Shown: in pieces, positions 3,217 to 19,606 of the stretch | How positions within the stretch are numbered: the stretch's first letter is position 1 | How the letters are laid out: every line of letters begins with the position of its first letter | Assembly (NCBI RefSeq): GCF_030252425.1 | Contig: NZ_CP126994.1 | Span: forward strand, 1,798,001-1,862,000 | From: Acidisoma sp. PAMC 29798 | GTDB lineage: Bacteria; Pseudomonadota; Alphaproteobacteria; Acetobacterales; Acetobacteraceae | DNA length: 64,000 nt | Direction: 5' to 3' | Program-made: the position numbers and the translations under genes | Notes under the pieces: generated by a model | What the model was told of the DNA's origin: nothing | Database searches by the model: none | The model's input: the letters and a program-made list of their open reading frames with translations, nothing else

Positions 3217-3621
3217 ATGCGCTGGCTCGTCGGGCTTCCTCTGGTCTTTTCGCTCGGCGCCTGCGCCTTGATCATGCCCAAGTCGGCGGGGCAGGGCTTT
3301 CCGGTGTTCTTCGACCCCACCTCGGCGGCCATCACCAATGGCGCGCTCGGCACGATCGATGCGGCGGCGAAATTTGCCAATGCGCATGCCGATGAGCCGG
3401 TCATCCTGTCGGCCTATATGGCGCCTGCGGGCCATCACTATGTCGAAGTCCCTGGCATCGACACGCAACGCGGCGAGGCCGTGACCGCGCGACTCGTAGC
3501 CGATGGCGTCGATCCCGCGCGCATTTCCATCAAGCCGAACGGCGCGGTTCAGCCGGACGTGCCGATGTCCAAGATCGAAGTCCGCCGCGTGGACATCATC
3601 GTCGGCGTGCCCGCCCGCTGA
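3217..3621 (+). CDS. OmpA-C-like small lipoprotein
   Basis: Probable envelope lipoprotein of 134 residues. The N-terminus is a lipoprotein signal ending in the lipobox LGAC, so the mature protein would start at that Cys. The rest resembles a compact OmpA C-terminal (peptidoglycan-associated) fold: a phase rich in 'FFDPTSAAIT', a helix 'DAAAKFANAHADEPVIL', and an R-G-E-A-V-x-x-R-L segment with 'VDPARI' typical of that domain. An in-frame TTG lies two codons upstream at 3211. The ATG at 3217 is preferred because AGG sits eight bases before it. The domain call rests on motif resemblance only. Confidence 0.7.
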   Translation: MRWLVGLPLVFSLGACALIMPKSAGQGFPVFFDPTSAAITNGALGTIDAAAKFANAHADEPVILSAYMAPAGHHYVEVPGIDTQRGEAVTARLVADGVDPARISIKPNGAVQPDVPMSKIEVRRVDIIVGVPAR

Positions 3622-3637: not shown

Positions 3638-3976
3638 TCACGCCTTCCAGACCGTCATCACCAATCCGCCTGCGATGATGAGGGCGCCGCCCACGATGAC
3701 CGGCATCGTGGGCGCGACGCCGAACACCACACCATTGATGATCTGGGCGACGAGAAAGAACAGCGTCACGTAAATGCCCAGCAGCCGCCCGAAATCCCAG
3801 GGCGGCAGATTGACCGTGACGCCATAGGCGAGAAGCACCAAGCCGCCGACCGCGATCAACCCGAGTCGCAGGGCCGGGGTGTACGCGCCGTGCAACCCGC
3901 GCCGGACGATGGCGTCTCCGCCCGCTTCCAGCACCGCTGCGCCAAGCAGAACCAGAAATGCGAGCCAGGGTCGCAT
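3638..3976 (-). CDS. Small four-helix membrane protein, SMR/EamA-like
   Basis: A 112-residue protein made almost entirely of four hydrophobic helices (about residues 3-20, 36-54, 66-86 and 90-108), the layout of small multidrug resistance and half-size EamA proteins. The segment 'VLEAGGDAIVRRGL' in the first helix region resembles the SMR Glu-containing start. Substrate unknown. The start codon shares one base with the stop of the PdeM gene on the same strand, so the two are probably co-transcribed. That is a recurrent neighbour arrangement rather than proof of a repair role. Confidence 0.65.
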   Translation of the reverse strand: MRPWLAFLVLLGAAVLEAGGDAIVRRGLHGAYTPALRLGLIAVGGLVLLAYGVTVNLPPWDFGRLLGIYVTLFFLVAQIINGVVFGVAPTMPVIVGGALIIAGGLVMTVWKA

Positions 3977-4665
3977 TAAGCGGCCACGCGTGAGCGGGCG
4001 AGCTGGAAATGGTACAAGCGGTCTTTGCCCAGCAGAAAAATACGTCCACCACGGGGGAAGAGGCCGGCGATGGCTTTATCCGCCACGTCTAAGCCGCCCG
4101 TGTAGCTCCCAAAGGCCGGCATGATGAGACGGCGATGCCCGTCCGTCACAAAGCACGGTCGAGTGACACTGGCGCCCCGCACCGGCACTGTCGCCTTGGG
4201 GTGATGGTGGCCGCAGATTTCGGCGTCGTTGCTGGTCGCTCGCGCCTCATGCCGGAAGGTCAGCGGCAGATCGGCGAACTCCTCCGCGACCTCGCCCGGC
4301 AGATCGGCCGGCAAATGGGGGTCGTGATTGCCCAGGACCCAGAGGAAATTGACCGTCTTGGCCATAGTGGCGAGGCGCGCGCGGTCTGCCGTCTGGAGGC
4401 GATCGGCGCCGCCGCAATCATGAAAGCTATCGCCCAGCGCGAGCACCGTTTTGGGCGAATAATGCCGCAGGAGCAGGGCCATGCGGTCGAGCGTGGTGCG
4501 GCTGTCATAGGGCGGCAGCAGCCTGCCACGACTGGCGGCGGCGGAGCCTTTTTCCAGATGAAGATCCGCGAGGATCAGCATGTTCCGCGCCGGCCAATAG
4601 GCGGCGCCAGACGGGTCTAGCATCAGGCGCTCACCGGCGAGGTGAAGCGGCGCGGCGTTGGTCAA
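3976..4665 (-). CDS. pdeM: Ligase-associated DNA repair endonuclease PdeM-like metallophosphoesterase
   Basis: Calcineurin-like phosphoesterase of the bacterial Lhr/ligase repair cluster, presumed to process DNA ends. All metal-binding blocks are present: ADLHLEKGS, LALGDSFHD, VLGNHDPH and CGHHHPK. The open frame extends to 4719, but its first 18 codons lie inside a short palindromic repeat (4689-4758) and give a translated-repeat N-terminus. The TTG at 4665 yields the expected family start (TNAAPLHLAGERLMLDPSG) and 229 residues, a normal length. It is transcribed after the Lhr helicase, with the repeat between them, and is followed by a small membrane protein. Confidence 0.88.
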   Translation of the reverse strand: MTNAAPLHLAGERLMLDPSGAAYWPARNMLILADLHLEKGSAAASRGRLLPPYDSRTTLDRMALLLRHYSPKTVLALGDSFHDCGGADRLQTADRARLATMAKTVNFLWVLGNHDPHLPADLPGEVAEEFADLPLTFRHEARATSNDAEICGHHHPKATVPVRGASVTRPCFVTDGHRRLIMPAFGSYTGGLDVADKAIAGLFPRGGRIFLLGKDRLYHFQLARSRVAA

Positions 4666-4688
4666 TTGAACACCCCGACACCCCTTAC

Positions 4689-4758
4689 CGTCATCCACGG
4701 GCTTGACCCGTGGATCCATGGGCGCCCATGGATCCGCGCATCGAGTGCGCAGATGACG
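4689..4758. repeat. Intergenic palindromic repeat, family A (copy 1)
   Basis: Outer arms CGTCAT (4689-4694) and ATGACG (4753-4758) enclose nested palindromes: CACGGGCTTGACCCGTGG at 4695-4712 and a perfect one around CCATGGGCGCCCATGG. The pattern 'cgggcttgacc ... atcgagtgcgc' recurs in degenerate form at 22116-22208. It matches a class of short repeats common between alphaproteobacterial genes, whose minus-strand translation begins MDPRVKP. Confidence 0.75.
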
Positions 4759-4822
4759 ACAGAACGAGTAGGTCTTGAAGACGTCATCGGGAGCGGAAAA
4801 CCTCAGTGGAAAACTTCATATC

Positions 4823-7330
4823 TCAGGTCAACTTCGGGTCTGATCGTGATGTTCGTGCAAGCACGTTCTCAGGATGTTCCTCCCCCGTCGCTTCGCTGAC
4901 AAGAGCCTCCGCCTCGGCGAGAAGATCCTCCACGCCCATGCCCTGAACCTGCTCGCGTCCGATTTCCAGCAGAACGGGCACCGCGAGGGGCGACACCCGG
5001 TCGAGCCGCACTTGCCGCACCCGGCCGCGCACCCGCTGCAGCATGCCCGACAGTCGGCCGAGATCGGTCAAGCCGCCCGCCGCATCCGCCCAGGTCGCGC
5101 GCAGCAGAATATGGTCCGGCTGGTGGCGACGCAGCACGTCGTAAATCAGGTCGCTGTTCACCGTCACCTGGCGCCGGTTGCGCTCGGCCCCCGGCATCTG
5201 CCGGTCGATCAGCCCGCCGATGACCGCGACATTGCGAAATGTGCGGCGAAGCATGGAGCTTTCGGCCATCCAGGATTCGAGATCGTCGCCCAGCATGTCT
5301 TCGTGGAACAGCGCGTCCATGTCATGCGGCTCATGCGCGGACCAGACGGCGATGACGTAATCGGTCGCGACATAGCCCAGCGGACCCATGCCGAGCCGCT
5401 CCATCCGCCGGGTCAGCAACATGCCAAGGGTCTGGTGTGCGTTGCGGCCCTCAAAGCAATAGGCGACCAGAAACCAACGCCCGCCGCGTGGAAAGGTCTC
5501 GACCATCAGGTCATCCTCACCGGGCAGGGAAGACCGCGCCTGCTGGATCGCGAGCCATTCGCGCACCGGGCCCGGAAAGGCCGGCCATTGTGCGGGGTCG
5601 TGCAGCATGGCGCGGACACGGGCGGCGAGGCCCGTCGTCAAAGGCAGGCGCGCGCCGGCATAGGTCGGCACCTTCGGCGTACCGGATCCGCCATCCGCGA
5701 CCTCTGCCGTCATTTCCCGCAAGCGCATGAAGCGTAAAAGCCGGCCGGCGAAGATGAAGGTGTCGCCCGGCGTCAGGCTGCTGACGAACCATTCCTCGAC
5801 CTCGCCCAGCATCGGCCCGCGCCCGAGGCGCAGCTTGATCATCGGCGCTTCGACGATGGTGCCGATATTCATGCGGTATTGCCGGGCGACGCGGGCGTTA
5901 CGGACATGGACCAATCCCTCGGCGTCGCGGAACAGTTTTCGATAACGCTCATAGGCTTGCAGGGCGTAGCCGCCATCTTCCACGAAGCTCAAAACCGCCG
6001 TGAACGTTTCGCGATCGAGCGTCGCATAGGGCGCGGCGGAGGTGACTTCCGCAAAGGCGTCATCGGGGTGAAACGGCCCGGCACAGGCGAGGCCCAATAG
6101 GTGCTGCGCCAAGACATCCAGGCCGCCAGGCCGGGGCGCGTCGCCGTCCAGCTCGCGGGCCGCAACGCCCTGGCGCGCCGCTTCGCATTCCAGCACCTCG
6201 AAGCGATTGGCGGGCACCAGGATGGCGACGCTGGTTTCATCCATGCGGTGATTGGCGCGGCCGACGCGCTGCAGCAGGCGGGACACGCCCTTGGGCGCGC
6301 CGACCTGGATGACCTGATCGACACCGCCCCAATCGATGCCGAGATCGAGGGAGGAGGTGGCAATGACGGCACGCAGGCTGCCCGCTGCCATCGCGGCCTC
6401 GACCTTGCGGCGCTGCGCGATGTCCAGGCTGCCGTGATGGATGGCGATCGGCAGCGTGTCCTCATTGATGCGCCAGATGTCCTGGAACAGCAGCTCGGCC
6501 TGGGCGCGGGTATTGACGAAAATGATGGTGAGGCCGGCGGCTTTCACCTTTTCTAGGATGTCGGGCGCGGAGGCGAGGCCCATATGCCCGCCCCAGGGCA
6601 GATGGCCCTGCGGCAGCATGATGGTGAGGTCGGGCGGGGACGGATCGGCGACCTCGATCAACCGCAAGTCGTCGCGCATTTCGCTGCCGGAGACATAGGT
6701 TGCCAGCGCCTCCTTGTGGGCGACGGTGGCGGACAGGCCGATCCGCCGGGCTTGCGGCGCCAGGCGGGACAGGCGCGCAAGGCCTAACGCGAGCAGATCG
6801 CCGCGCTTGGTGCCCGCCAGGGCATGAACCTCATCGATGATGACGGAGCGGAGGTTGCGGAACATATCGGACGCGCCGTCGAGCGACAGCAGCAGAGCGA
6901 GGCTCTCCGGCGTCGTCAGCAGGATATCGGGCGGCATCTCCCGCTGCCGGGCGCGACGGTTCTGCGGCGTGTCCCCGGTCCGCGTCTCGATGCGGATGGG
7001 GAGTGCCATCTCCTCCACCGGCTCGGTCAGGTTTCGGGCGATATCGGTCGCAAGCGCCTTCAGCGGGCTGAGATAGAGGGTATGGACGCCCGGCAGCGGC
7101 GCGTCAGCCGCTAAAGGCGGCCGCTCGGACAGTTCGATCAGGCTCGGCAGGAAACCTGCCAGCGTCTTGCCGCCACCGGTGGGCGCGATGAGCAGGACGT
7201 GATGGCCAGCCTGTACCTCCGCCAGCACATCGCGCTGATGGCGTCGCACCGACCAGCCACGCGCCGCGAACCACGCTGAAAAGCGCGCGGGAATGGGCGT
7301 CGCTTGGGGAGGGAGGCGGCGTCGGCTCAT
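4823..7330 (-). CDS. lhr: Ligase-associated Lhr-type DNA helicase (LHR-Core)
   Basis: Superfamily 2 DNA helicase of 835 residues, the LHR-Core form associated with DNA repair ligases. RecA-like domain 1 carries Walker A (APTGGGKTLAG), the TTPESLALLL block and the DEVH box (IIDEVHAL). Domain 2 has HHGSL, ATSSLDLGIDWG and the arginine-finger motif QRVGRANHR. A winged helix and a C-terminal Lhr domain follow. The start at 7330 (MSRRRLPP) is preferred to a frame reaching 7402, whose added codons look non-coding. It forms a module with the PdeM, exonuclease and ligase genes, the last two divergent from it. The gene ends about 65 bases before repeat copy A1. Confidence 0.95.
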   Translation of the reverse strand: MSRRRLPPQATPIPARFSAWFAARGWSVRRHQRDVLAEVQAGHHVLLIAPTGGGKTLAGFLPSLIELSERPPLAADAPLPGVHTLYLSPLKALATDIARNLTEPVEEMALPIRIETRTGDTPQNRRARQREMPPDILLTTPESLALLLSLDGASDMFRNLRSVIIDEVHALAGTKRGDLLALGLARLSRLAPQARRIGLSATVAHKEALATYVSGSEMRDDLRLIEVADPSPPDLTIMLPQGHLPWGGHMGLASAPDILEKVKAAGLTIIFVNTRAQAELLFQDIWRINEDTLPIAIHHGSLDIAQRRKVEAAMAAGSLRAVIATSSLDLGIDWGGVDQVIQVGAPKGVSRLLQRVGRANHRMDETSVAILVPANRFEVLECEAARQGVAARELDGDAPRPGGLDVLAQHLLGLACAGPFHPDDAFAEVTSAAPYATLDRETFTAVLSFVEDGGYALQAYERYRKLFRDAEGLVHVRNARVARQYRMNIGTIVEAPMIKLRLGRGPMLGEVEEWFVSSLTPGDTFIFAGRLLRFMRLREMTAEVADGGSGTPKVPTYAGARLPLTTGLAARVRAMLHDPAQWPAFPGPVREWLAIQQARSSLPGEDDLMVETFPRGGRWFLVAYCFEGRNAHQTLGMLLTRRMERLGMGPLGYVATDYVIAVWSAHEPHDMDALFHEDMLGDDLESWMAESSMLRRTFRNVAVIGGLIDRQMPGAERNRRQVTVNSDLIYDVLRRHQPDHILLRATWADAAGGLTDLGRLSGMLQRVRGRVRQVRLDRVSPLAVPVLLEIGREQVQGMGVEDLLAEAEALVSEATGEEHPENVLARTSRSDPKLT

Positions 7331-8256: not shown

Positions 8257-9315
8257 ATGGCCGCACCTCACCCCGAGACCTGGATGCGCGTGCTACCGCA
8301 AGGCCTGTATTGCGAGCCGGGCGACTTCTTCATCGACCCGCTGCGCGCGGTGCCCCGCGCCGTCATCACCCACGGCCATTCCGATCATGCCCGCGCCGGC
8401 CATGGCGCCGTCATGGCGACGCCGGAAACCCTGGCCATCATGCGGTCGCGCATGGGCGAAGGCCGCGCCGGTGAGCGCCAACAGGCGCTCGGCTACCACC
8501 AGCCCCTCACCATCGGCGAACTCACCGTCACCCTGGTTCCCGCCGGCCATGTGCTCGGCTCCGCCCAGATCGTGATGGAGTGGCGGGGTAGCCGCGCCGT
8601 GGTCAGTGGCGATTACAAGCGCCAGCCTGATCCTACCTGCGCGCCCTTCGAGCCCGTGGAGTGCGATGTCTTCGTGACAGAAGCGACCTTCGGTTTTCCG
8701 GTCTTCCGGCATCCGCCGCCCCAGCATGAGATTGCGAAACTCCTCAAGAGCCTCACGATCTTTCCCGAACGCACCCACATTATTGGCGCCTATTCCCTCG
8801 GCAAATCGCAACGCGTGATCGCGGAACTGCGGGCCGCCGGATGGGACGCGCCGATCTATATCCACGGCGCCCTGGCGGCGCTGTGTGCCCTCTATGAGGC
8901 GAGTGGCATCCGCCTCGGCGATCTCCGCCCCGCGACGGTCGCGAAGAAGGAGGCGTTCAAGGGCGCCATCGTGGTCGCACCGCCGGCAGCCTGCGCCGAT
9001 CGTTGGGCGCGGCGGTTCAACGACCCGGTGATCGCCCGAGCCTCGGGCTGGATGCGCGTGCGGCAGCGCGCCAAGATGGCCGGCGTGGAACTGCCCATGA
9101 TCATCAGCGATCACGCCGATTGGGACGATCTTCTGCGCAGCATTGCCGAAACCCGCGCGCCGGAAGTCTGGGTCACTCATGGCTCGGAGGAAGCGCTGAT
9201 CCATGCCCTCACGCTGCGCCAGATTCGCGGCCGCGCGCTGCGCCTTGTGGGCTATGAGGACGAGGAAGCCGCCGAGGAAGCACCGGACGACTTAGCAGCG
9301 GCAGTGCCCGCATGA
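8257..9315 (+). CDS. Ligase-associated beta-CASP metallo-beta-lactamase exonuclease
   Basis: Predicted DNA exonuclease of 352 residues with the fold of mRNA 3'-end processing enzymes. The metallo-beta-lactamase motif is ITHGHSDHARAGH (about residues 29-41), followed by the second histidine block around 'AGHVLGSAQIVME' and the Asp of 'VVSGDYKRQ'. The beta-CASP region includes 'GAYSLGKSQRVIAEL', and the terminal histidine block is 'VWVTHGSEEALI'. The stop overlaps the start of the ligase gene by four bases (ATGA), which indicates translational coupling. The family is the Exo component of the Lhr/PdeM/Exo/ligase cluster. Confidence 0.93.
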   Translation: MAAPHPETWMRVLPQGLYCEPGDFFIDPLRAVPRAVITHGHSDHARAGHGAVMATPETLAIMRSRMGEGRAGERQQALGYHQPLTIGELTVTLVPAGHVLGSAQIVMEWRGSRAVVSGDYKRQPDPTCAPFEPVECDVFVTEATFGFPVFRHPPPQHEIAKLLKSLTIFPERTHIIGAYSLGKSQRVIAELRAAGWDAPIYIHGALAALCALYEASGIRLGDLRPATVAKKEAFKGAIVVAPPAACADRWARRFNDPVIARASGWMRVRQRAKMAGVELPMIISDHADWDDLLRSIAETRAPEVWVTHGSEEALIHALTLRQIRGRALRLVGYEDEEAAEEAPDDLAAAVPA

Positions 9316-10928
9316 CGCCCTTCGCGGCTTTGCTGGAACGGCTGGTGTTCACGCCCGGACGCCTCGCCAAAATCGCGCTGCTGCGGGATTATTTCAGCCA
9401 TACGCCCGACCCCGATCGCGGCTATGCGCTGGCCGCGATCGCCGGCGATCTCAGCTTCGTCGCCGCGAAACCCGCCATGATCCGCCAGATCACCGCCGAG
9501 CGCGTCGATCCCACGCTGTTCGAATGGTCTTATGACTATGTCGGCGACCTGGCCGAGACGGTGTCGCTGATCTGGCCCGATACGGCACCGGGCGCGGCGC
9601 CACGCCTATCGGAGGTTGTGGACGCGCTGCACGAGACGACAAAGACGGAGATGCCGGCGCGGGTCGCGGCTTGGATGGATGTCTGCGACCCCTCCGAGCG
9701 GTTGGCACTGCTGAAACTCATCACCGGCGGCTTGCGGGTCGGTGCCTCGGCGCGCCTCGCCAAGATCGCCTTAGGGGAAATGGCCGGCCTTCCAGCCGAT
9801 GACATCGAAGAAGTCTGGCACGGCTTGCTGCCGCCCTACCAACCGTTGTTCGACTGGCTGGAGGGGAGGGCGCCGAAGCCGGACGCCGCAGGCGCGCCGG
9901 TGTTTCGCCCGACGATGCTCGCCCATCCGCTGGAGGAAGCGGACGCCGGCAGCATCGATTGGGCGGCCTATCGCGCCGAATGGAAATGGGACGGCATTCG
10001 CGTGCAACTCGTGGCCACGGCCGGTGGTCACCGCCTCTATACCCGGACAGCGGAAGACATCTCCCACGGTTTTCCCGAAATCCTCGCGGCGATGGAGTTT
10101 CAGGGCGTGCTGGACGGGGAGCTGCTGGTGGTGCGGGACGGCCAGGTCGCGCCCTTCGGCGATTTGCAGCAGCGCCTCAACCGCAAATCGCCCGGCGCGA
10201 AGATGCTCGCGGAGTTTCCGGCCGCCGTGCGGCTGTATGACATCCTGTTCGATGGCGACGCGGATTTGCGCGCGCTGCCCTTCGACGAACGGCGTGTGCG
10301 GCTGGAGCAATGGGTGGAGCAGCATCACCCCGAGCGGATGGATATCTCGCCGCTCATTCCCTTCGCAGGGCCGGAAGATCTCGCCGAACTCCGCCTCGGC
10401 GCGCGGGCCGCGAGCATCGAGGGTTTGATGCTCAAGCGCGGCGACAGCCCCTATCTCGCCGGCCGCCCGAAAGGGCCGTGGTGGAAGTGGAAGCGCGATC
10501 CGCTGTCGATCGACGCGGTGCTGATGTATGCCCAGCGCGGCCATGGCCGACGGTCGAGCATCTATTCCGACTATACCTTCGGCCTCTGGCGGGAGGATGG
10601 CGTATTGGTGCCGGTGGGCAAAGCCTATTCCGGCATCACCGACCAGGAGCTGGGGTTTCTGGACAAATGGGTTCGCAGCCACACCACGGGCAAATTCGGC
10701 CCGGTGCGGGAGGTGGAGAAGGCCCTGGTGCTGGAGATCGTCTTCGACGCCGCGCAGCTTTCGACGCGGCATAAGTCTGGCGTGGCACTGCGCTTTCCCC
10801 GCATCAGTCGCATTCGCGCCGACAAGCCGGCGGCCGAGGCCGATCGGCTGGATAGTCTCATGGCCCGCGTGCCGCCGTCAGGCGCCTTGCGCGCCGAAAC
10901 CCTTGTCGAGACGGACGTGGCGGGATAA
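9312..10928 (+). CDS. ATP-dependent DNA ligase of the Lhr-associated repair cluster
   Basis: DNA ligase of 538 residues that would seal nicks using ATP. An N-terminal DNA-binding domain (about residues 1-190) precedes the adenylation domain. The nucleotide-accepting lysine is in motif I, EWKWDGIRVQL (about residue 230). Later blocks are ILDGELLVV-like 'VLDGELLVVRDG', 'EGLMLKRGDSPY', and the motif V segment 'KGPWWKWKRDPLSID'. The OB-fold domain ends with 'ALRFPRISRIR'. Known relatives are called cisplatin-damage-response ATP-dependent ligases. It overlaps the exonuclease gene by four bases, so both come from one message. Confidence 0.95.
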   Translation: MTPFAALLERLVFTPGRLAKIALLRDYFSHTPDPDRGYALAAIAGDLSFVAAKPAMIRQITAERVDPTLFEWSYDYVGDLAETVSLIWPDTAPGAAPRLSEVVDALHETTKTEMPARVAAWMDVCDPSERLALLKLITGGLRVGASARLAKIALGEMAGLPADDIEEVWHGLLPPYQPLFDWLEGRAPKPDAAGAPVFRPTMLAHPLEEADAGSIDWAAYRAEWKWDGIRVQLVATAGGHRLYTRTAEDISHGFPEILAAMEFQGVLDGELLVVRDGQVAPFGDLQQRLNRKSPGAKMLAEFPAAVRLYDILFDGDADLRALPFDERRVRLEQWVEQHHPERMDISPLIPFAGPEDLAELRLGARAASIEGLMLKRGDSPYLAGRPKGPWWKWKRDPLSIDAVLMYAQRGHGRRSSIYSDYTFGLWREDGVLVPVGKAYSGITDQELGFLDKWVRSHTTGKFGPVREVEKALVLEIVFDAAQLSTRHKSGVALRFPRISRIRADKPAAEADRLDSLMARVPPSGALRAETLVETDVAG

Positions 10929-11261: not shown

Positions 11262-11702
11262 GTGCCCGCACCGTTCATGGCCTGCATGATCGCGGCTGCC
11301 TTCGCGAATCATCTGCCGGCGCGGGCCTTGCCCGCGATTCACGCCGTAGAAGGCGGTTATGTCGGCTCCGTCCATCCCAATAGCGATGGTAGCCACGACC
11401 TCGGCATGATGCAGGTGAACACGCTGTGGGTGCGGCCGATTGCTCAGGCGACCGGTCTGCCGCCGCAGACGGTCACGGTGCGGCTGATCACCGACGGCTG
11501 CTTCAACATTGCCGTGGCGGGCCGGATTCTTCGCATCTATCTCGACGAGACGCATAACAATATCTGGGCGGCGATCGGCGACTACCATTCGCACACGCCT
11601 GGGCTGAACACGGCGTATCGGATGAAAGTTTTTGCGCAAGCGATGGCAATGCCCGGCGCCAAGGCCGCCATGATGCGGCGGCTACGCCGGGCGGAGCGGT
11701 AG
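11262..11702 (+). CDS. Lytic-transglycosylase-like protein
   Basis: A 146-residue goose-lysozyme/SLT-type domain. The putative catalytic Glu lies in 'IHAVEGGYVGSV' (about residue 30), followed by the family block 'DGSHDLGMMQVN' and a C-terminal 'AIGDYHSHTPGLN' (equivalent to the Y-N-x-G element). The start is a GTG six bases after the cytochrome c stop; ATG 11277 is an alternative. No signal peptide is visible from either start, which is odd for a peptidoglycan enzyme. The cytochrome gene upstream is in the same frame with only one TAG between. It resembles the short VirB1/TrbN-like enzymes, but no secretion genes are nearby. Confidence 0.75.
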   Translation: MPAPFMACMIAAAFANHLPARALPAIHAVEGGYVGSVHPNSDGSHDLGMMQVNTLWVRPIAQATGLPPQTVTVRLITDGCFNIAVAGRILRIYLDETHNNIWAAIGDYHSHTPGLNTAYRMKVFAQAMAMPGAKAAMMRRLRRAER

Positions 11703-12122
11703 CCAGAGGCGTTGGTCGAAGGCGAACGGGCGGATCTCGACGATGGCGGCGCCTGCCGCTGCAGGATGAGCGACATTGAGAACGATGTTCGTGCTTTCGG
11801 GCACGATTGCGGATGGAACCCTCAGCAAGGGCGTTCGCTGGTCACGCAGCCACTCGTCACCAAAGGCCTGCGGGTTGGACGGCCAAGACATGACATCCTC
11901 GATGGCCAAGTCGTTGAGATCTATCGTCATCAGAACATAATCGGCAGGCAGAAGTTCAGGCGGCAGATCAAGATGCACGCGGACTTCCAGGACGGCGAGT
12001 GCCGCTGTCGATCCACAATAGAGAACCGGGCGTCCGGGCGTATTCCAGCGGCCCCCATAGAGCCGCGCCCCGTCACCCCCGATATCAGCGAAAGGCTTTC
12101 GGCAAATCCTCCACGCCAGCAT
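11682..12122 (-). CDS. RES-domain toxin (NAD+ phosphorylase family)
   Basis: Toxin component of a RES/Xre type II module, 146 residues. Family members degrade NAD+. The typical conserved residues are visible: the N-terminal Arg in 'AWRICRKPFADIGGDGARLYGGRWN', 'GRWNTPGRPVLYCGSTAALAVLEV' including the Tyr and Glu expected in the active site, and a Ser/Asn-rich C-terminal block 'VPESTNIVLNVAHP'. It is the second gene after the antitoxin (gap 9 bases). Its 3' end overlaps the convergent transglycosylase-like gene by 21 bases. Confidence 0.9.
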   Translation of the reverse strand: MLAWRICRKPFADIGGDGARLYGGRWNTPGRPVLYCGSTAALAVLEVRVHLDLPPELLPADYVLMTIDLNDLAIEDVMSWPSNPQAFGDEWLRDQRTPLLRVPSAIVPESTNIVLNVAHPAAAGAAIVEIRPFAFDQRLWLPLRPA

Positions 12123-12131
12123 CAGGAACGG

Positions 12132-12569
12132 TCAGGCCGCCAAACCATGATCAATGCGCCCGAGTAGACGCTCAACCTCTCGCGTCCCTTCATCGGTATC
12201 GAGCAATGACAGGGGCTGTTCGCCCGCCAGTGCCGTCGTCGGTCGCCGCAGCCAAATTCCAGCTTTGTCCCGATCGCCAAAGGTTTCCTCGGCGCTTGCC
12301 AAGATGCGAGCCACTCGTATCAGCCGATCGGATTGTTCGGCCGTCAGCGTCCCGAGCTTCCGTCGATTTGCCAAAGTCTTCCGAGGCATAACAATCTTGT
12401 CTAGCTCAGCGAGCGTCAGTTTGCCGGTGTCGAGCAGGAATTGAACGGCTGCAACAGGAAGGCCGCGGCGCACGCGCGTTACGGTGTCGAGGCCGGGAGC
12501 CACATCGCTGCCCATGACGGCAACGCCACCGACAACCTCGAAAACGCTCATCTGTACGTGTCCGGCCAT
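12132..12569 (-). CDS. Xre/MbcA/ParS-type antitoxin
   Basis: Antitoxin partner of the RES toxin, 145 residues. An N-terminal Xre-like region (about 20-75, 'AVQFLLDTGKLTLAELDKIVMPRKTLANRR') is followed by the MbcA/ParS toxin-binding domain: 'LTAEQSDRLIRVARILASAEETFGD', then 'AGIWLRRPTTALAGEQPLSLLDTDEGTREVERLL'. The start at 12569 overlaps one arm of an inverted repeat. An in-frame ATG six codons later (12551) is an alternative. Autorepression through that repeat is likely. Confidence 0.9.
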   Translation of the reverse strand: MAGHVQMSVFEVVGGVAVMGSDVAPGLDTVTRVRRGLPVAAVQFLLDTGKLTLAELDKIVMPRKTLANRRKLGTLTAEQSDRLIRVARILASAEETFGDRDKAGIWLRRPTTALAGEQPLSLLDTDEGTREVERLLGRIDHGLAA

Positions 12570-12800: not shown

Positions 12801-13370
12801 TTACGGTCGTGACAGCAGGTCGATACGGTAGCCCTCACCCCGCTCCTGCCGTGCCACAGCAAGGCCCGATGCGGCGATGAAGCCTCCGGCCGCGTCGTCA
12901 CCCTGCTGCGGATCGTCCAGTTTGCCGGTCCAGTTGACGAGCAAAATGTGGCCCCCAGGCGCCAGGCTCGTGCGCGCGAGGGCGGCCGTCTGGTGGAGGT
13001 CCGTATCGCTCAGGAAATAGAGCACTTCCGAGAACAGGATGAGGTCGAAGCTGCCCTCCGGCCACTCCGCCGGCACCGCAAGTCGCGCGAAGCGTGCCTG
13101 CGGGATGTCGGCGCATCGCGCACGCGCCGCGACCAGAGGCGTCTCAGTGATGTCGAGGCCGAGGAAAGCGTCACAGAGGGGCGCAATCTGGCGCGACAAC
13201 ACGCCGATGGAGCAGCCCACCTCCAGAGCCGTGCCGTAATGCCGGTCCGCGATCATCGCCAAGGTCGCGGCATATTTCGCCTGCTCATAGGCGCTGGTGG
13301 CAAACTTCCAGGGATCCGGGTCGGCGGCGTAGAGGCGCTCGAAATGCGCCGCGTCCCGGGACGCCGTCAT
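12801..13370 (-). CDS. NodS-like SAM-dependent methyltransferase
   Basis: Class I methyltransferase of 189 residues. The N-terminal signature 'YAADPDPWKFATSAYEQAKY' (about 14-33) is characteristic of the NodS group, whose named member N-methylates a deacetylated chito-oligosaccharide. The SAM-binding motif I is 'ALEVGCSIGVLSRQI' (about 48-62), motif II 'FLGLDITETPL', and 'FDLILFSEVLYFL' is the post-motif. It is the last gene of a four-gene operon and overlaps the PIG-L deacetylase stop by four bases (ATGA). In some genomes the same two domains are annotated as one bifunctional protein (recalled, not checked). The natural substrate is unknown. An N-methylation of a freed amine is the inference from context. 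Confidence 0.88.
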   Translation of the reverse strand: MTASRDAAHFERLYAADPDPWKFATSAYEQAKYAATLAMIADRHYGTALEVGCSIGVLSRQIAPLCDAFLGLDITETPLVAARARCADIPQARFARLAVPAEWPEGSFDLILFSEVLYFLSDTDLHQTAALARTSLAPGGHILLVNWTGKLDDPQQGDDAAGGFIAASGLAVARQERGEGYRIDLLSRP

Positions 13371-14098
13371 GAGACCAAAAAGGTCTCGACAGGTCGGCGG
13401 AAGATATCGAGCAGACCATCCGGCAAGGTAAAGCCCTCAGGATCGTCCAAGACGACACCGCCATATTGCGTCGCATGGGTCGCGATTGCCTGCTGCTTGA
13501 GGTCGATTTCACTGCTGATGTCCAAGCGCCAGCCGCGCGGCTGCGGCTCATCCACCACCTGGTCGTCAGGCAAGGTCCAGCCCCAGACGGGGTAGCTGAG
13601 CAGCGCGATGCCTTCGCGCACGGCCACATGCTCACCCAAGGTCGCGGCAGCCTCGTGATCGCAATGGGGATCGTGGCGCCAGGTGGTGATGATCACCTTG
13701 CAGTCGTGGTTCTCACAAATCCCCGCGATGCGGCGGGCAGCGAACTGAAAGCTCGGGCCGGCGCTCGGCACATCCGAGTCCATCAGGCCCATAAACCAGC
13801 TATGGCCATGCGGCAGGCCCAGGAGAAGAAGCGCGTCACGCGCCTCCTGCTCCCGCAGATTGCGCAATCGTTCCGGGGGATGGGTCACCGAACCGGGATG
13901 GGAATGACAACCATCGGTCAGGATCACGACATGCGGCGGAATGCCGGCTGCGCAGCATTGCGCGATCAAGCCGCCGCAGCCCAGGCTTTCATCGTCGGGG
14001 TGCGGCGCGATGATGAGAGGCACCCTGCCCTGCAAGACCTCATCGAGCGTCGCCAGCGGCAATTCGTTCCAGGCCTGTCGCACCTCGTCCATTCGCAT
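13367..14098 (-). CDS. PIG-L family deacetylase
   Basis: Zinc-dependent N-deacetylase of the LmbE/PIG-L family, 243 residues. The signature is 'IIAPHPDDESLGCGGLI' (about 29-45), where HPDD supplies metal ligands and the catalytic Asp. The second histidine block is 'WRHDPHCDHEAAATLGE' (about 155-172). Relatives remove acetyl groups from GlcNAc conjugates such as GlcNAc-inositol. It lies eleven bases after the acyl-CoA-dehydrogenase-like gene and overlaps the methyltransferase gene. Between a GT2 enzyme upstream and a methyltransferase downstream it would expose the amine of an N-acetylated sugar or similar intermediate. Confidence 0.92.
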   Translation of the reverse strand: MRMDEVRQAWNELPLATLDEVLQGRVPLIIAPHPDDESLGCGGLIAQCCAAGIPPHVVILTDGCHSHPGSVTHPPERLRNLREQEARDALLLLGLPHGHSWFMGLMDSDVPSAGPSFQFAARRIAGICENHDCKVIITTWRHDPHCDHEAAATLGEHVAVREGIALLSYPVWGWTLPDDQVVDEPQPRGWRLDISSEIDLKQQAIATHATQYGGVVLDDPEGFTLPDGLLDIFRRPVETFLVS

Positions 14099-14109
14099 GC
14101 TCGGGCTCC

Positions 14110-15234
14110 CTAAATCGGTGGCAATCCTTGTAGCATGAAGTAACCGGCTGCGTGATGCAGCACCTCATCGCCTGCCGGCTGGCGCAGATATGTTTGCAAA
14201 TCGCGGCTCATGCGTTCAACCGGATTATCCGTCACGAAGGCGCTGAGCCCGAGGGAGCGCTGGGCCAATTCGATGCCGTCCAGACAGGCCCGCTCCACCG
14301 CTGTACGCGCGAGCCCGACCATCGCCACGATACGAGCGGGGTCCTCGACCAAATCCTCGGCCGCCGCCCCTGCCCGTTCCAACCATAGCCAGCCGCTTTC
14401 ATGCGCGAGCAGCGCCTGCCCGAAGCGGGCGCGCTGATGCGGATCGTTCTGCCGACCACGGGCCGAAAGTTGGAGCCGCATCTGGTCGAGAATGCCGTAC
14501 AGCCCGCCTAACGCGGCAGCCGAGCTTCGCCATGCACCAGCCGAGAAATCCGGCTCTTTCATGTAATCGCCGGCCTCGCCGATGAGCCGGTCGGCTGTGG
14601 TCGTGACACCAGTAAAATCGACCTGCCCCGTCAGAGCACCGCGCATACCGGAGAGCGACGCGGCCAGCGGCGAGGTTGTCTCGCCCTGGCCCAAGTCGAG
14701 AAACAACAGCCGTGGCGGATCGTCTGTCCCGTCCGATGCTGTGACGACGGCATGGGTGACGCGCCCAGCACCGGAGCAGAATTGCTTGTGTCCCGAGAGC
14801 AGAATTCTGTCGCCATTGGCCACATAGGTGAGACCGCCGTGACTAGGATCCGTCACCCAAAGGCCGAGCAAACCTCCAGAGTGAATTGCTTTAGATACAA
14901 TCGATTGAAGGTCATGGCTTCCGTAACGCATGATGATGCGGATAGCGTTGATATGGGCTTCCACAAGACGCGCGACCGGTAGGCTTGCCTGGCCAATGAG
15001 ATGCAGAAGCGTGAGCAGCGCGTGGCCCTCTCCGGGCGTGACACCGATGCCGTGCCCGCCGAATTCTGCCGGGAAGGGCGCAGAAAAGACACCGATGCTC
15101 CCCAGGAGCGCCATTTCCTCAGTCGGATATTCTTTTTTAACATCAGTCGTCTGCGCAAGCATCCTCAAGCGCGGAAGGAGATCGCGGAGGGCCATGAGCG
15201 TAGAGACAGATGAACCGATGCCGATATCCATCAC
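14110..15234 (-). CDS. Acyl-CoA dehydrogenase-like flavoprotein
   Basis: A 374-residue protein of the acyl-CoA dehydrogenase superfamily. The N-terminal helical domain contains 'FSAPFPAEFGGHGIGVTPGEG' split over residues about 50-70. The middle beta domain has 'LLGLWVTDPSHGGL' and 'HKQFCSGAGRVTHAVV', which bind flavin. The C-terminal helical domain ends in 'QTYLRQPAGDEVLHHAAGYF'. I cannot identify the catalytic Glu with certainty, so a non-beta-oxidation role (desaturation or oxygenation of another substrate) is open. The start is GTG 15234 (overlapping the GT2 stop as GTGA) or ATG 15231. It sits between GT2 and PIG-L genes in a tight operon, which is unusual for a fatty-acid enzyme. Confidence 0.85.
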   Translation of the reverse strand: MMDIGIGSSVSTLMALRDLLPRLRMLAQTTDVKKEYPTEEMALLGSIGVFSAPFPAEFGGHGIGVTPGEGHALLTLLHLIGQASLPVARLVEAHINAIRIIMRYGSHDLQSIVSKAIHSGGLLGLWVTDPSHGGLTYVANGDRILLSGHKQFCSGAGRVTHAVVTASDGTDDPPRLLFLDLGQGETTSPLAASLSGMRGALTGQVDFTGVTTTADRLIGEAGDYMKEPDFSAGAWRSSAAALGGLYGILDQMRLQLSARGRQNDPHQRARFGQALLAHESGWLWLERAGAAAEDLVEDPARIVAMVGLARTAVERACLDGIELAQRSLGLSAFVTDNPVERMSRDLQTYLRQPAGDEVLHHAAGYFMLQGLPPI

Positions 15235-16325
15235 GCGGTTATAAACGCGTCATCGCCTATAGTGGAGGTCGTTTCGGGCCGCATCTGCGCCAAGAGGAAG
15301 CGCGCTTCCTCTATCAGACCTTCCAGAGCCGCCATGGCGACCGGGGCACGACGCAGCACAGGGCTCTGCGCCTCGATAGCGCTCCACCCGGCGCCAAAAC
15401 AGGGGGTGGACAAGGCCTCCGAAATCGTCGCGGGAGGCAAGCGAAGCGCGGCCGCAATGGCCAAGGGATCGCCCAAACCCATCCAGACACGCCTTGCCGC
15501 ACCGCGAAGCCGCGCGCGGCGTAAGGCGGCGGCCGGTCTTTCCAGCCGATCGTCGGCCCACAGATCCTGCACCACGATGCGGCGGGCGATGGTCGCGGCC
15601 ATGCCTCCGTCGGCGCGGCCGACGACACGACCGGAAACCATGACGCGGATGGCGGGATCATGCCTGATCCGGCTGTCTCGGCGCATCAACGCCTCGATCA
15701 GGGCCCGATCCTCCCCCACCGCGACCTGCGGCAAGCCACCGATCGACCGATAGGCCGCCGTGGTCACGGCGATGCTAGCCCCCGAATGATGGGTGTGGCG
15801 CGGCCAGGGATCATCCGCGCGCGGGTCGATGATGCTGTCGATTTCGTCAAGCAAGGCCGTGTATTCGGTCTCTAAAGCATCGTCCGAGATGAGATGGGCG
15901 GGGATCGCGGCCTCATCCACCGGGTCGATCATCGCCATGCCGCAGACCGCATCATAGCCCTCGGCAAGCCAGGTGAGGTTGCGTTCCACCCAATCGCGTG
16001 GCACGCGGCCATCCGCGTCCGTGGTCAGGATCGCGCCTCCGTTGCCAAGCAACTCGGCGGCTGCGTCCATCGCGAGCAGACGCGCATGGCCCGCGCTGGC
16101 CTCGCCGCCTGTCAACACCTGTTCGACCACGTGAACCTGTGCCACGCCATACGCCATGCGGCGGACGATCTGGGCCGATCGATCGGTGCAGTTGTTCAGC
16201 AGAAGAACGATATGATCGGCCGGCTGCGTTTGACCAAGCAACGCCGCGAGACACGCACCGATATGGCTTTCCTCGTCCTTGACCGGAATGGCCACGGCGG
16301 AAGGGCTAAGTGAATGATAGGACAC
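15231..16325 (-). CDS. Family 2 glycosyltransferase
   Basis: GT-A fold glycosyltransferase of 364 residues, first gene of the four-gene operon. The N-terminus 'SAVAIPVKDEESHIGACLAA' is the usual GT2 opening. The metal-binding DXD is in 'LTTDADGRVPRDWVERN' (about 103), and an acceptor-side block 'HHSGASIAVTTAAYRSIGGL' with 'GEDRALIEALMRR' follows. No transmembrane span is evident, so it may act in the cytoplasm on a small or membrane-linked acceptor. The start is GTG at 16325. No ATG in frame gives a better N-terminus. Donor and acceptor are unknown. Confidence 0.88.
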   Translation of the reverse strand: MSYHSLSPSAVAIPVKDEESHIGACLAALLGQTQPADHIVLLLNNCTDRSAQIVRRMAYGVAQVHVVEQVLTGGEASAGHARLLAMDAAAELLGNGGAILTTDADGRVPRDWVERNLTWLAEGYDAVCGMAMIDPVDEAAIPAHLISDDALETEYTALLDEIDSIIDPRADDPWPRHTHHSGASIAVTTAAYRSIGGLPQVAVGEDRALIEALMRRDSRIRHDPAIRVMVSGRVVGRADGGMAATIARRIVVQDLWADDRLERPAAALRRARLRGAARRVWMGLGDPLAIAAALRLPPATISEALSTPCFGAGWSAIEAQSPVLRRAPVAMAALEGLIEEARFLLAQMRPETTSTIGDDAFITA

Positions 16326-16387: not shown

Positions 16388-17185
16388 TCACCGCAGACGC
16401 GTTTCCGGCCTCAACGTTTCCGCGATGTCCAGCGCCGCCTCGCTCGCGCCGCGCCCCAAAAGACGCAGCAGCCCCCTCGCCCGCTTCGGTCGCAGCCAGA
16501 CGGATTTGGCGCGGGTGCCACCGATCTCACGCAGCAGGCCATCGACATCGCCGAGGCTATCGATGAGCCCGGCCGCCAGGGCCTTGGAGCCGATCATGTA
16601 GCTGCCGTCGAATAGCGTCTCCTCCGGCGCACGCAGCCGGCCGGTCCGGCGGGTGCGCACCCAATCCTTGAAGTGACCGTGGAGGTCTTCGAGCAGGGCG
16701 CGGGTGAATTCCAAATCCTCCGGCCGCTCCGGGCTGAAAGGATCGAGCCGGCCCTTATTGGCGCCGGCGGTATAGAGCCTGCGATCGACGTCTAGCCGGC
16801 GCAGCAGCCGGTCCACGCCGAAGCCGCCGCCGATGACGCCGATGGAGCCCACGATGCTCATCGGATTGGCGCGGATCTCATCCGCTGCGCAGGCGATCCA
16901 ATAGCCGCCCGAGGCGCCGACATCGCCGATGACGGCCGTGACTTTGACGCCCGTCTCGACCGCCCGCCTGCGGATGAACTGGCCGATCAGGTCAGACTGC
17001 ACCGGGGAGCCGCCGGGGCTGTCCACCGCCAGGATGAGCCGTTTACCGCCGGTCTTGGCGAGGGCGAAGCCGCGCTCGATCAAAGGCCCGGCCGATTGCA
17101 GATTAAGAGCGCCGGCGCGGCCAGCAATGACGCCGCGCAGCTCGACGACGGGAATGGGGCGGGCACGCCAGAACAGGAGGGGCAT
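16388..17185 (-). CDS. S49 family (SppA/SohB-like) serine peptidase
   Basis: A 265-residue signal-peptide-peptidase-like enzyme. The catalytic Ser is in 'GDVGASGGYWIACAADEI' (about 95-112) and the catalytic Lys in 'TAGANKGRLDPFSPE' (about 148-162). Flanking blocks 'LAVDSPGGSPVQSDLI' and 'VGSIGVIGGGFGVDRLL' complete the family pattern. There is little N-terminal hydrophobic sequence, so membrane attachment is uncertain. This is the short, single-domain type. It begins three bases after the stop of the MscS-type channel on the same strand, suggesting one message. Confidence 0.9.
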   Translation of the reverse strand: MPLLFWRARPIPVVELRGVIAGRAGALNLQSAGPLIERGFALAKTGGKRLILAVDSPGGSPVQSDLIGQFIRRRAVETGVKVTAVIGDVGASGGYWIACAADEIRANPMSIVGSIGVIGGGFGVDRLLRRLDVDRRLYTAGANKGRLDPFSPERPEDLEFTRALLEDLHGHFKDWVRTRRTGRLRAPEETLFDGSYMIGSKALAAGLIDSLGDVDGLLREIGGTRAKSVWLRPKRARGLLRLLGRGASEAALDIAETLRPETRLR

Positions 17186-17188
17186 GGA

Positions 17189-19606
17189 TCAACTATGATC
17201 CGAAGGCGGTGGCTGGTCGATCTTGGAGGCGGTCGGCGCCGGGGTCGCCTCTGGCGGTTCAATCGTCTCAGGCTGAACAGTGTCGATGCGCACGTCCAGC
17301 GGATGCTGAAAGCTCATGATGGTGGCCGAGGGCATCATGCGAATCCCGTTCTCCTGAAACACCAGCTTGACCCGGCGATTGTATTCCCGTTGCACACCCC
17401 AGCGCGCGCCATCCGTGCAGACGATCTGTCCGGCAAGCGTCGCCGTGGTGCCGTCGATCTTATCCACGCCCCAGTATTGCAGGTCGCTGAGCATCCCGTC
17501 CCTGAAGTCCGCCTCGCCCCGCATATCGAGCGCGATCTGGCTGAGCAGCTTGCCCACCCGGTCGGTATCCTCGTCATAGGAGATGCTGACGGAGACGGAG
17601 GCATTGCCGATGCCGCGATTGGTATTGGTGACGGTCGAGACAGCGCTGAAGGGAATGAGGTGGACCGATCCATCCCCCGCCCGCAGCCTCAGGGTGCGGA
17701 TGGACAGGTTCTCGACCGTGCCGGACAGGCCGGCGGCGGTCACCCAATCTCCCACCTGCATGGCATTTTCGAGCAACAGGAAGATGCCGGTGATGAAGTC
17801 CTGCACCAGCTTCTGGGACCCGAAGCCGATGGCGACGCCGAGGATGCTGGCGCCGGCGAGCAGCGGCGCGATATTGATGCCGATCTCGCTCAGCGCCGTC
17901 AGCGCGATCACCACCAGCAGCGCGATCATCAGGGCGTTGCGCAGCAGCGGCACCACCGTGCGCAGCCGAGCGACGCGAACATGCGCGCCCTGCTGGGACA
18001 GCTCGTCCATATAGACCTGCATGACGAAGTTGATCGTCTCCCACACGATCACCGCAATGACGAGGGTCACCAGGATGGTCGCGAAGGAGCTGACCAGCCG
18101 GCCGCCGAGCGCGCCGACCGCGAACCAGGTCACGGCATCGACACCCCAGAACTGGAACAGGACCAGGAAGAAACCGACGCTCATCACGATATTGACCAGC
18201 ACGCGCAGCGGCCCGTGATAGCGGGCGGCGCGGGTGCCGATCAGCGCGTAACGGCCGTCGGTCTGGCTGACACCGAGCGCGAAAATGCGGTCCAGGGCGC
18301 CAAGGATAATGACGGAGACGATCCGGAACAGGATCAGCAGCCCCATCGTCATGAGGATGACATGGAGCGGACGGCCGAGCCCGTTCTGCACCTGGGTCGC
18401 ATAGACGATCCAGACCAGAACGATGAGGATGATCGCCTGGATATGCCAGGTGCTGGCTGCGCGGACCTTGAGGTCATGCCAGGCGCCGGGCGTGCTTCCG
18501 CTCAGCCATGCTGCGACCTGGGTGCGGCGCTTCAGCACCATGACGATGAGCATGCCATGCACGATCAGCCCCAGGAGCCGCGTGATGGTGAGCTGCATCG
18601 CCTGGTTCATGCCGCATAGAGCGCCGATCTGCGTGATGGCAGAGCCGAAGACGACGACCAAAGCGAGCCTGCGGATCCAGACGGAGAGGAAGCCGGCCGC
18701 GTCGTTGGAGACATGTACCAGCCGCAGCCTGGCGCTGGGCGAGCAGATGACGGCCCGCGCGACGGACAGAAACAGGCGGCATCCGACATAGGCATTGATG
18801 ATGGCGATGATCGCCAGGCGGGTGTTATTGCCCTGTGCCAACGGCGTCGCGAGGATCAGCGTCGCGACGGCTAGAAAGACGGCGGTCGGAAACGCGTCCA
18901 ATAAAAGCGCGAACAGAATGAACGGCAGCCGCTTCAACAGCAGCCAGCCGCTGTGCAGCGGCTTTAGTCCTATCCGGGCCCGTGGCCCGATCCGCTTCGA
19001 CGTCACTCGGGCTGGCGGCGTGGTCGCCTCGGCCTCAGCCTCCGTCTCACCTTGAACCCGCTCGCGCCCCATCCGGTCATACAGCCGGCGGGTCACGCGC
19101 CAGGCCGCGTATTCCGCCAGGAGCGAGGCCACGAGGATGATCGCCAAACGCCAGATGGCATGCAGCACGGTCTGGAGCATGCCCGGATCGCGGCTGACCT
19201 GATCCGCCCAGACCACGAATTCCTGATAGTCGATGATACTGACGGCGGTGGCACTCAGGCTGGTATCGATCTGATCGTACACGCCACCGGCACTGTCGAG
19301 CAGGTCGGAGGCGAGGCTGTCTTTCTTGAGCGCCACGGTTTTCTTGGCGGGCGCGGCGGCCGGCGTCGCAGTCGGTGCCGTGACGACCTGAACCGGAACC
19401 ACGACCCCCGATGCGGGAACAACCTTGCGCAGGCTTTGGAGCGTCGAGATTAGCTGCGCCCGCTTTTGCGGGTTCTGCAACACATCCAACAATTGCTGGG
19501 TTTCCGACGCCGTCAGCCCCGCTGCGGGGGCATCAGCCGCCCGCGCCGAGCCGAAGACGCCAAGGGCGAGACACAGAACCAGGAGAAGCGTGCGGGCAGA
19601 TCTCAT
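17189..19606 (-). CDS. Large MscS-family mechanosensitive channel
   Basis: An 805-residue member of the MscS superfamily, well above the size of E. coli MscS. Order: signal peptide (residues 1-23, cut near ARAADA), periplasmic N-domain with coiled-coil-like stretches (about 30-130), about ten hydrophobic helices (150-560), then the conserved pore and beta domain. The pore helix is in 'LLAGASILGVAIGFGSQKLV' and the beta domain continues 'DFITGIFLLLENAMQVGDWV'. A C-terminal tail after about 740 is Pro/Glu rich. Such proteins release solutes on hypo-osmotic shock. The S49 peptidase gene follows directly. Confidence 0.93.
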   Translation of the reverse strand: MRSARTLLLVLCLALGVFGSARAADAPAAGLTASETQQLLDVLQNPQKRAQLISTLQSLRKVVPASGVVVPVQVVTAPTATPAAAPAKKTVALKKDSLASDLLDSAGGVYDQIDTSLSATAVSIIDYQEFVVWADQVSRDPGMLQTVLHAIWRLAIILVASLLAEYAAWRVTRRLYDRMGRERVQGETEAEAEATTPPARVTSKRIGPRARIGLKPLHSGWLLLKRLPFILFALLLDAFPTAVFLAVATLILATPLAQGNNTRLAIIAIINAYVGCRLFLSVARAVICSPSARLRLVHVSNDAAGFLSVWIRRLALVVVFGSAITQIGALCGMNQAMQLTITRLLGLIVHGMLIVMVLKRRTQVAAWLSGSTPGAWHDLKVRAASTWHIQAIILIVLVWIVYATQVQNGLGRPLHVILMTMGLLILFRIVSVIILGALDRIFALGVSQTDGRYALIGTRAARYHGPLRVLVNIVMSVGFFLVLFQFWGVDAVTWFAVGALGGRLVSSFATILVTLVIAVIVWETINFVMQVYMDELSQQGAHVRVARLRTVVPLLRNALMIALLVVIALTALSEIGINIAPLLAGASILGVAIGFGSQKLVQDFITGIFLLLENAMQVGDWVTAAGLSGTVENLSIRTLRLRAGDGSVHLIPFSAVSTVTNTNRGIGNASVSVSISYDEDTDRVGKLLSQIALDMRGEADFRDGMLSDLQYWGVDKIDGTTATLAGQIVCTDGARWGVQREYNRRVKLVFQENGIRMMPSATIMSFQHPLDVRIDTVQPETIEPPEATPAPTASKIDQPPPSDHS

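Follow-up and report, generated by a model that had tools for sequence, protein, structure and literature searches.

The window analysed here, a stretch of 64,000 nucleotides from the 4.99 Mb genome of Acidisoma sp. PAMC 29798, carries a cassette of four genes on its minus strand (12801-16325). In the order of transcription these encode a GT2 glycosyltransferase (15231..16325, 364 residues), a flavoprotein with the acyl-CoA dehydrogenase (ACAD) fold (14110..15234, 374 residues), a PIG-L family de-N-acetylase (13367..14098, 243 residues) and a NodS-like methyltransferase of the S-adenosylmethionine (SAM) type (12801..13370, 189 residues). The GT2 and flavoprotein genes overlap at GTGA, with an in-frame ATG immediately after the GTG as read from the sequence; an 11-base gap separates the flavoprotein gene from that of PIG-L, whose ATG is preceded by GGGAG; and the PIG-L and methyltransferase genes overlap at ATGA. 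A first-pass annotation of this stretch had taken the four genes for one operon on the strength of these junctions, all of which we find as described. Pfam places GT2 in PF00535 (3.3e-11), PIG-L in PF02585 (4.1e-23; 82.7 bits vs a cut-off of 28.2) and the methyltransferase in PF05401 (1.4e-16; 61.4 bits vs a cut-off of 24), and gives the flavoprotein weak matches to three ACAD domains (1.1e-5, 8.4e-5 and 4.7e-4, the last under its cut-off). None of the four proteins passes an NCBIfam cut-off. No strong hydrophobic segment is found in the four proteins, nor in 27 aligned GT2 rows, and the four are therefore expected to be cytosolic.

The four genes are a conserved module, kept in distantly related bacteria. 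The searches that yielded the loci were seeded with the module's own genes, so that the co-occurrence counts are conditional frequencies; the pooled set holds all distinct loci fetched from flavoprotein and methyltransferase seeds, 66 of them with the flavoprotein clade. The methyltransferase is present in 63 of these 66, PIG-L in 58 (one a 25-bit trace) and GT2 in 51, with many flanks cut. In 53 of the 66 the flavoprotein, PIG-L and methyltransferase genes follow one another in that order, codirectionally and with gaps below 400 bases, a recurrence that rules out a chance neighbourhood. GT2 is codirectional with the cassette in 38 loci and opposite in 13. Seen from the methyltransferase, 35 best-scoring matches in a 398-genome phylum sample lie at or above about 159 bits and 34 were examined (a second match in G572 was left out): the flavoprotein adjoins 33 (the exception is G625) and PIG-L 28, being missing at the loci of G318, G456, G444, G619 and G625 and reduced to a 25-bit trace in G556. 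In the stretches fetched around the weaker matches (L138-L143) neither flavoprotein nor PIG-L was found. The first-pass annotation had proposed a conserved pathway, a claim that rare co-occurrence outside close relatives would have undone; the counts above speak for it. That the module serves one conserved pathway, N-deacetylation included, we regard as highly probable.

The distribution is wide. The flavoprotein exceeds 100 bits in 17 of 60 related genomes, in all five of the window's genus and in 16 of 36 of its family; across the 398-genome sample a single-flavoprotein search at 1e-15 finds 18 genomes and the methyltransferase profile 50. A search of genome contigs for related loci returned one. 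Plasmid records with the cassette from Deinococcus, Nostoc, Rubrobacter and Acinetobacter add Deinococcota, Cyanobacteriota and Actinomycetota. On a plasmid of Methylobacterium sp. FF17 the flavoprotein is present and the other three genes were not found within 8 kb. Two relatives in the genus (L044 and L045) have the cassette at the same site, flanked by homologues of the window's neighbours, with ligase, cytochrome and transglycosylase genes on one side and S49 peptidase, MscS and GGT genes on the other; two more (L046 and L047) keep the four-gene order, and within 13 kb no homologue of the window's neighbouring genes was detected. The cassette moves as a unit. On a plasmid of Acinetobacter johnsonii typed as mobilizable (L178) it has trehalose genes of otsA/otsB type beside it, and there is an IS30 transposase at the edge. 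Mirror-tree correlations (rho 0.55-0.77, 0/200 permutations) are uncorrected for species relatedness and are not used as support. A candidate GT2-flavoprotein fusion in Deinococcus radiodurans was set aside and is not claimed: in the annotated product of 779 residues those before 428 match no Pfam family, and the gene in Deinococcus sp. NW-56 is of normal length.

The first-pass annotation described the second protein as ACAD-like and had it oxidise a chain in the product. The likeness holds for the fold and fails for the active site. AlphaFold gives a confident model (pLDDT 94.5) that Foldseek places in the ACAD fold. Alignment of 35 cassette proteins with 27 ordinary ACAD-type open reading frames (a class sample plus the window's genome) reveals Gln352 (codon 14179-14181) in all 35 at the column of the catalytic Glu, where the controls have Glu in 13, Gly in 11 and Ala in 3. 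At the column of the second base all 35 have Gly233 and 12 of the 27 controls Glu. We take both columns to be those of the catalytic base, and in medium-chain acyl-CoA dehydrogenase a change of Glu to Gln at the catalytic position cripples the enzyme. As aligned, the cassette flavoprotein lacks both of the usual ACAD catalytic Glu residues.

Its closest relatives among solved structures are flavin monooxygenases. In a profile search DszC (6.9e-28) and methanesulfinate monooxygenase (7.9e-27) lead and ordinary ACADs begin at 1.5e-22; with the 35-row profile DszC, TdsC and MsuC alone among solved sequences reach 1e-20. Of 44 family members, 38 match the model for SfnB and 30 that for DszC. In HMMER alignments His94 pairs with the His of the YH stretch of DszC and Ser154 with the Ser of its CSG stretch, residues that are presumably catalytic there, and the C-terminal RDLxxYLRQPxxD falls on RNLRTQTLHDPLD of MsuC, with Gln where MsuC has His. 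The shared fold, the lost dehydrogenase base, the aligned residues and the best profile matches indicate kinship with the group-D flavin monooxygenases DszC, MsuC and SfnB, from which the window protein differs in that C-terminal Gln and in lying under all NCBIfam cut-offs. A flavin monooxygenase requires reduced flavin. The Rubrobacter operon includes an oxygenase-type ferredoxin-NAD (NADH) reductase-like gene, and the window's genome has three unlinked flavin reductases of a family present in 13 of 14 control genomes.

Several observations weigh against an oxygenase. The fold itself separates no subclass, since Foldseek returns TM-scores of ~0.74-0.86 to dehydrogenases and monooxygenases alike, and it is uninformative as an arbiter between the two. 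The acyl-CoA dehydrogenase model FadE16 is matched by 24 of the 44 members and the desulfinase model by 22; for the window protein NCBIfam ranks 3-sulfinopropanoyl-CoA desulfinase first, then cyclohexanecarbonyl-CoA dehydrogenase, then SfnB. No reductase is linked to the cassette in the window. Sequence does not favour oxygenation of nitrogen in particular, because the sugar N-oxygenases (nitrososynthases) KijD3, ORF36 and DnmZ, although detectably related, score from 4e-21 to 1e-19, level with ordinary dehydrogenases. These three are ACAD-fold flavoproteins that act on amino sugars, as nucleotide sugars, in antibiotic pathways. The desulfinase ranking and the unaccompanied window gene would suit a non-redox enzyme of desulfinase type, or a structural protein, with an N-methylated amino-sugar glycoside as the product. 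Against this, SfnB and DszC match more members than the desulfinase, the best solved relatives are monooxygenases and the Rubrobacter operon holds a reductase gene; we consider such a role improbable. Dehydrogenation of an acyl or lipid chain on a Nod-factor-like conjugate, as first proposed, draws on the ACAD fold and on the company of GT2, a deacetylase and a NodS relative in one operon. The loss of both base columns in 35 of 35 proteins, the monooxygenase kinship and the lack of an acyltransferase among the four conserved genes make it very unlikely.

The metal-site residues of PIG-L (H33, D35, D36, H145 and H148) are invariant in 36 rows, and its motifs are intact (PHPDDE at 13988-14005, HCDH at 13655-13666). 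Its closest solved relatives are diacetylchitobiose deacetylases. A PIG-L enzyme that follows a glycosyltransferase recalls the bacillithiol and mycothiol pathways, and a low-molecular-weight thiol-type glycoside would be consistent with the best-scoring models, which are bacillithiol deacetylases: BshB1 is matched by 36 of 36 PIG-L members and BshB2 by 33 of 36 at 0.001. The scores of the window protein against the BshB/MshB models (50.6, 46.3 and 21.4 bits) nevertheless stay far under the cut-offs (182.5, 195.25 and 224.35). BshA and MshA are GT4 glycosyltransferases, whereas the cassette core has a GT2, and it adds a methyltransferase and a flavoprotein. No cysteine-adding enzyme is among the four conserved genes, and no genome-wide search for one was made. 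A thiol of this kind is, in our estimate, most improbable.

Eight genomes have a locus without PIG-L. Five of them carry a PIG-L of the same clade elsewhere: in G010, G318, G456 and G444 it scores 189-313 bits (the G444 copy shares a contig with the locus, some 12 kb from it), and in G032 it sits in a second cassette. Counting against a constant deacetylation step, a genome search at 1e-10 found no same-clade PIG-L in G619, G556 and G625, and the G625 locus lacks the flavoprotein as well. In Rubrobacter, where PIG-L was not found locally, a PF01522 deacetylase stands directly before the flavoprotein gene; its best NCBIfam match is NodB, at 113 bits vs a cut-off of 240. No other single clue points as strongly as this replacement, seen at one locus, to N-deacetylation of an N-acetyl sugar as the conserved step. 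The replacement also strengthens the earlier suggestion that the cassette follows the logic of nodC, nodB and nodS.

The comparison with Nod-factor genes extends to the methyltransferase, within limits. Both systems place a GT2, a de-N-acetylase and homologous SAM methyltransferases in one operon (nodA-nodB-nodC-nodS-nodU in L174 and L177). The cassette differs in having PIG-L for NodB (except for the NodB-type enzyme of Rubrobacter) and an extra flavoprotein, in having no NodA among its conserved four, and in its methyltransferase, which lies outside the NodS branch. The NodS-like protein, METHYLTRANSFERASE, belongs to the Pfam NodS family and reaches 66.1 bits against the NCBIfam NodS equivalog, short of its cut-off of 300. 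In 40 rows E50 and G56 are invariant and G52, C53 and D73 are conserved in at least 90%, and the EVGCSIG motif (13203-13223) is intact. The closest solved methyltransferases are the uncharacterised 4isc (5e-55) and then NodS 3ofj (2.3e-28). In an unrooted maximum-likelihood tree of 53 proteins a branch with support of 98/95 splits the 42 cassette methyltransferases from 5 nodulation NodS and 6 other NodS-domain proteins (L143 falls within the NodS group); the cassette branch nearest the NodS side is that of Rubrobacter (86/81). The cassette enzyme is accordingly a relative of NodS and not NodS itself, identity between the two is not supported, and the Gene Ontology (GO) term 'nodulation' that plasmid records give these methyltransferases is misleading. 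Elsewhere in the Alphaproteobacteria, NodS-type domains occur in open frames of ~750-1220 codons (L138-L142), some with weak GT2 matches nearby; in the tree these domains group beside NodS and not with the cassette.

The catalytic motifs of the GT2 are also intact. D103, D105 and E205 are invariant in 27 rows and A104 and D206 are present in at least 90% (codons of D103-A-D105 near 16011-16019, of E205-D206 at 15708-15713). The AlphaFold model (pLDDT 89.8) gives general GT-A matches with poor superposition, and is uninformative as to the sugar donor. At nine loci (L053, L084, L119, L120, L121, L122, L124, L147 and L151) the cassette lies beside all or part of a larger set of glycosyltransferases (GT4, GT2, GT28-like and GT2b), and in G318 and G456 PIG-L is found inside that set, with the flavoprotein and methyltransferase elsewhere. 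The cassette might then tailor an oligo- or exopolysaccharide built by several glycosyltransferases, a surface glycan in place of a small metabolite. None of the five genomes searched in the window's genus has the GT28-like gene, and each of them has the flavoprotein; this, with the missing hydrophobic segments in the four window proteins and the 27 GT2 rows, leads us to think surface decoration rather unlikely. In L124 a gene at 3775-6162 encodes a GT4 fused to a sucrose-phosphate-phosphatase-like protein (795 residues), beside the G444 methyltransferase and flavoprotein genes.

We propose that the enzymes of the cassette build an amino-sugar glycoside in the cytosol and then modify it. GT2 enzymes use a nucleotide donor for sugar transfer, PIG-L enzymes de-N-acetylate glycosides, and NodS methylates the amine freed by deacetylation. 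By analogy, the GT2 would move an N-acetylhexosamine, probably N-acetylglucosamine, onto an acceptor; PIG-L would strip the N-acetyl group and expose the amine; and the NodS-like enzyme would methylate that amine with SAM. The flavoprotein, as a group-D-like flavin monooxygenase supplied by a separate reductase, would then oxygenate the product; the amine or a position close to it is the most plausible site. These four steps make the simplest complete scheme because the flavoprotein is nearly constant, its dehydrogenase bases are lost and its kin are monooxygenases. The substrates, the order of steps, the N-methylation, the site of oxygenation, the role and the product are inferred, and for the scheme as a whole we put the chances at slightly under even.

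The compound would probably be made under stress. By our own reading of annotated plasmid tables over ~8 kb, at loci with flavoprotein, methyltransferase and deacetylase, a stress-type gene lies near 9 of 14: a general stress protein (L079), Ku and LigD (L081), catalase (L084, L086 and L147), catalase with a starvation protection protein (L148), Mn-catalase with a universal stress protein (L149), DUF892 (L150) and the trehalose genes of L178. Within that distance L082, L083, L087, L146 and L151 have none. The promoter consensus of EcfG type we take to be GGAAC-N16-17-CGTT. Of 32 alphaproteobacterial cassette GT2 genes, 4 have a strict match upstream; base shuffles would give 0.09 and the density of the motif in the same loci 0.18. 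Other points tell against a stress role: stress-type genes are common and the neighbour count carries no background control, the strict motif precedes none of 36 flavoprotein genes, and it was not found in the 900 bases upstream of the window's GT2. In Sphingomonas melonis the top-50 table of the EcfG regulon includes an EcfG-dependent glycosyltransferase operon, #3506-3509, and #3505 is reporter-confirmed and called a putative indirect target (PMC6599016). The gene names of this operon resemble the larger glycosyltransferase set near some cassettes; the portions of the text consulted do not show the four cassette genes, and the operon is a lead, not evidence. The neighbours suggest a stress role, and the product may be a stress protectant.

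Next to the operon in the window are genes of other kinds. Genes for an S49 peptidase (PF01343) and an MscS-type channel (16388-19606, minus strand) are separated by 3 bases; they lie upstream of the GT2 gene, 62 bases from it, and may share a transcript with the cassette. Directly downstream is a RES/Xre type II toxin-antitoxin pair (11682-12569, minus strand; NCBIfam 134.1 vs 110 and 106 vs 90), with homologues in the same place in L044 and none found in L045. On the plus strand (8257-10928) are genes that we label by eye as a metallo-beta-lactamase-fold exonuclease-like protein and an ATP-dependent DNA ligase-like protein; Acidisphaera (L043) likewise has homologues near its cassette.

The types of chemistry are known, and their combination is not described in the literature searched: a full-text search found no account of it, which is no proof of absence, and the portions examined of PMC7660261 and PMC13130816 contain nothing on the cassette. 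More broadly, and as an unlikely extension, the cassette could be a widespread mobile stress pathway whose products, amino-sugar glycosides both methylated and oxygenated at nitrogen (hydroxylamines or nitrones), would form an undescribed class. In this picture the sugar-amine oxygenase would be a recruited ACAD-fold flavoprotein, and NodS would be a side branch of the same, older family of methyltransferases. The occurrence of the cassette in several phyla and on plasmids argues that bacteria of many habitats probably benefit from its product. At present its genes are labelled one by one, as 'acyl-CoA dehydrogenase', 'PIG-L deacetylase' and a methyltransferase carrying GO terms for nodulation. 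Treating them as one pathway corrects misleading annotation, makes the product findable by comparison of a deletion strain with the wild type, and offers a clue to where NodS came from.

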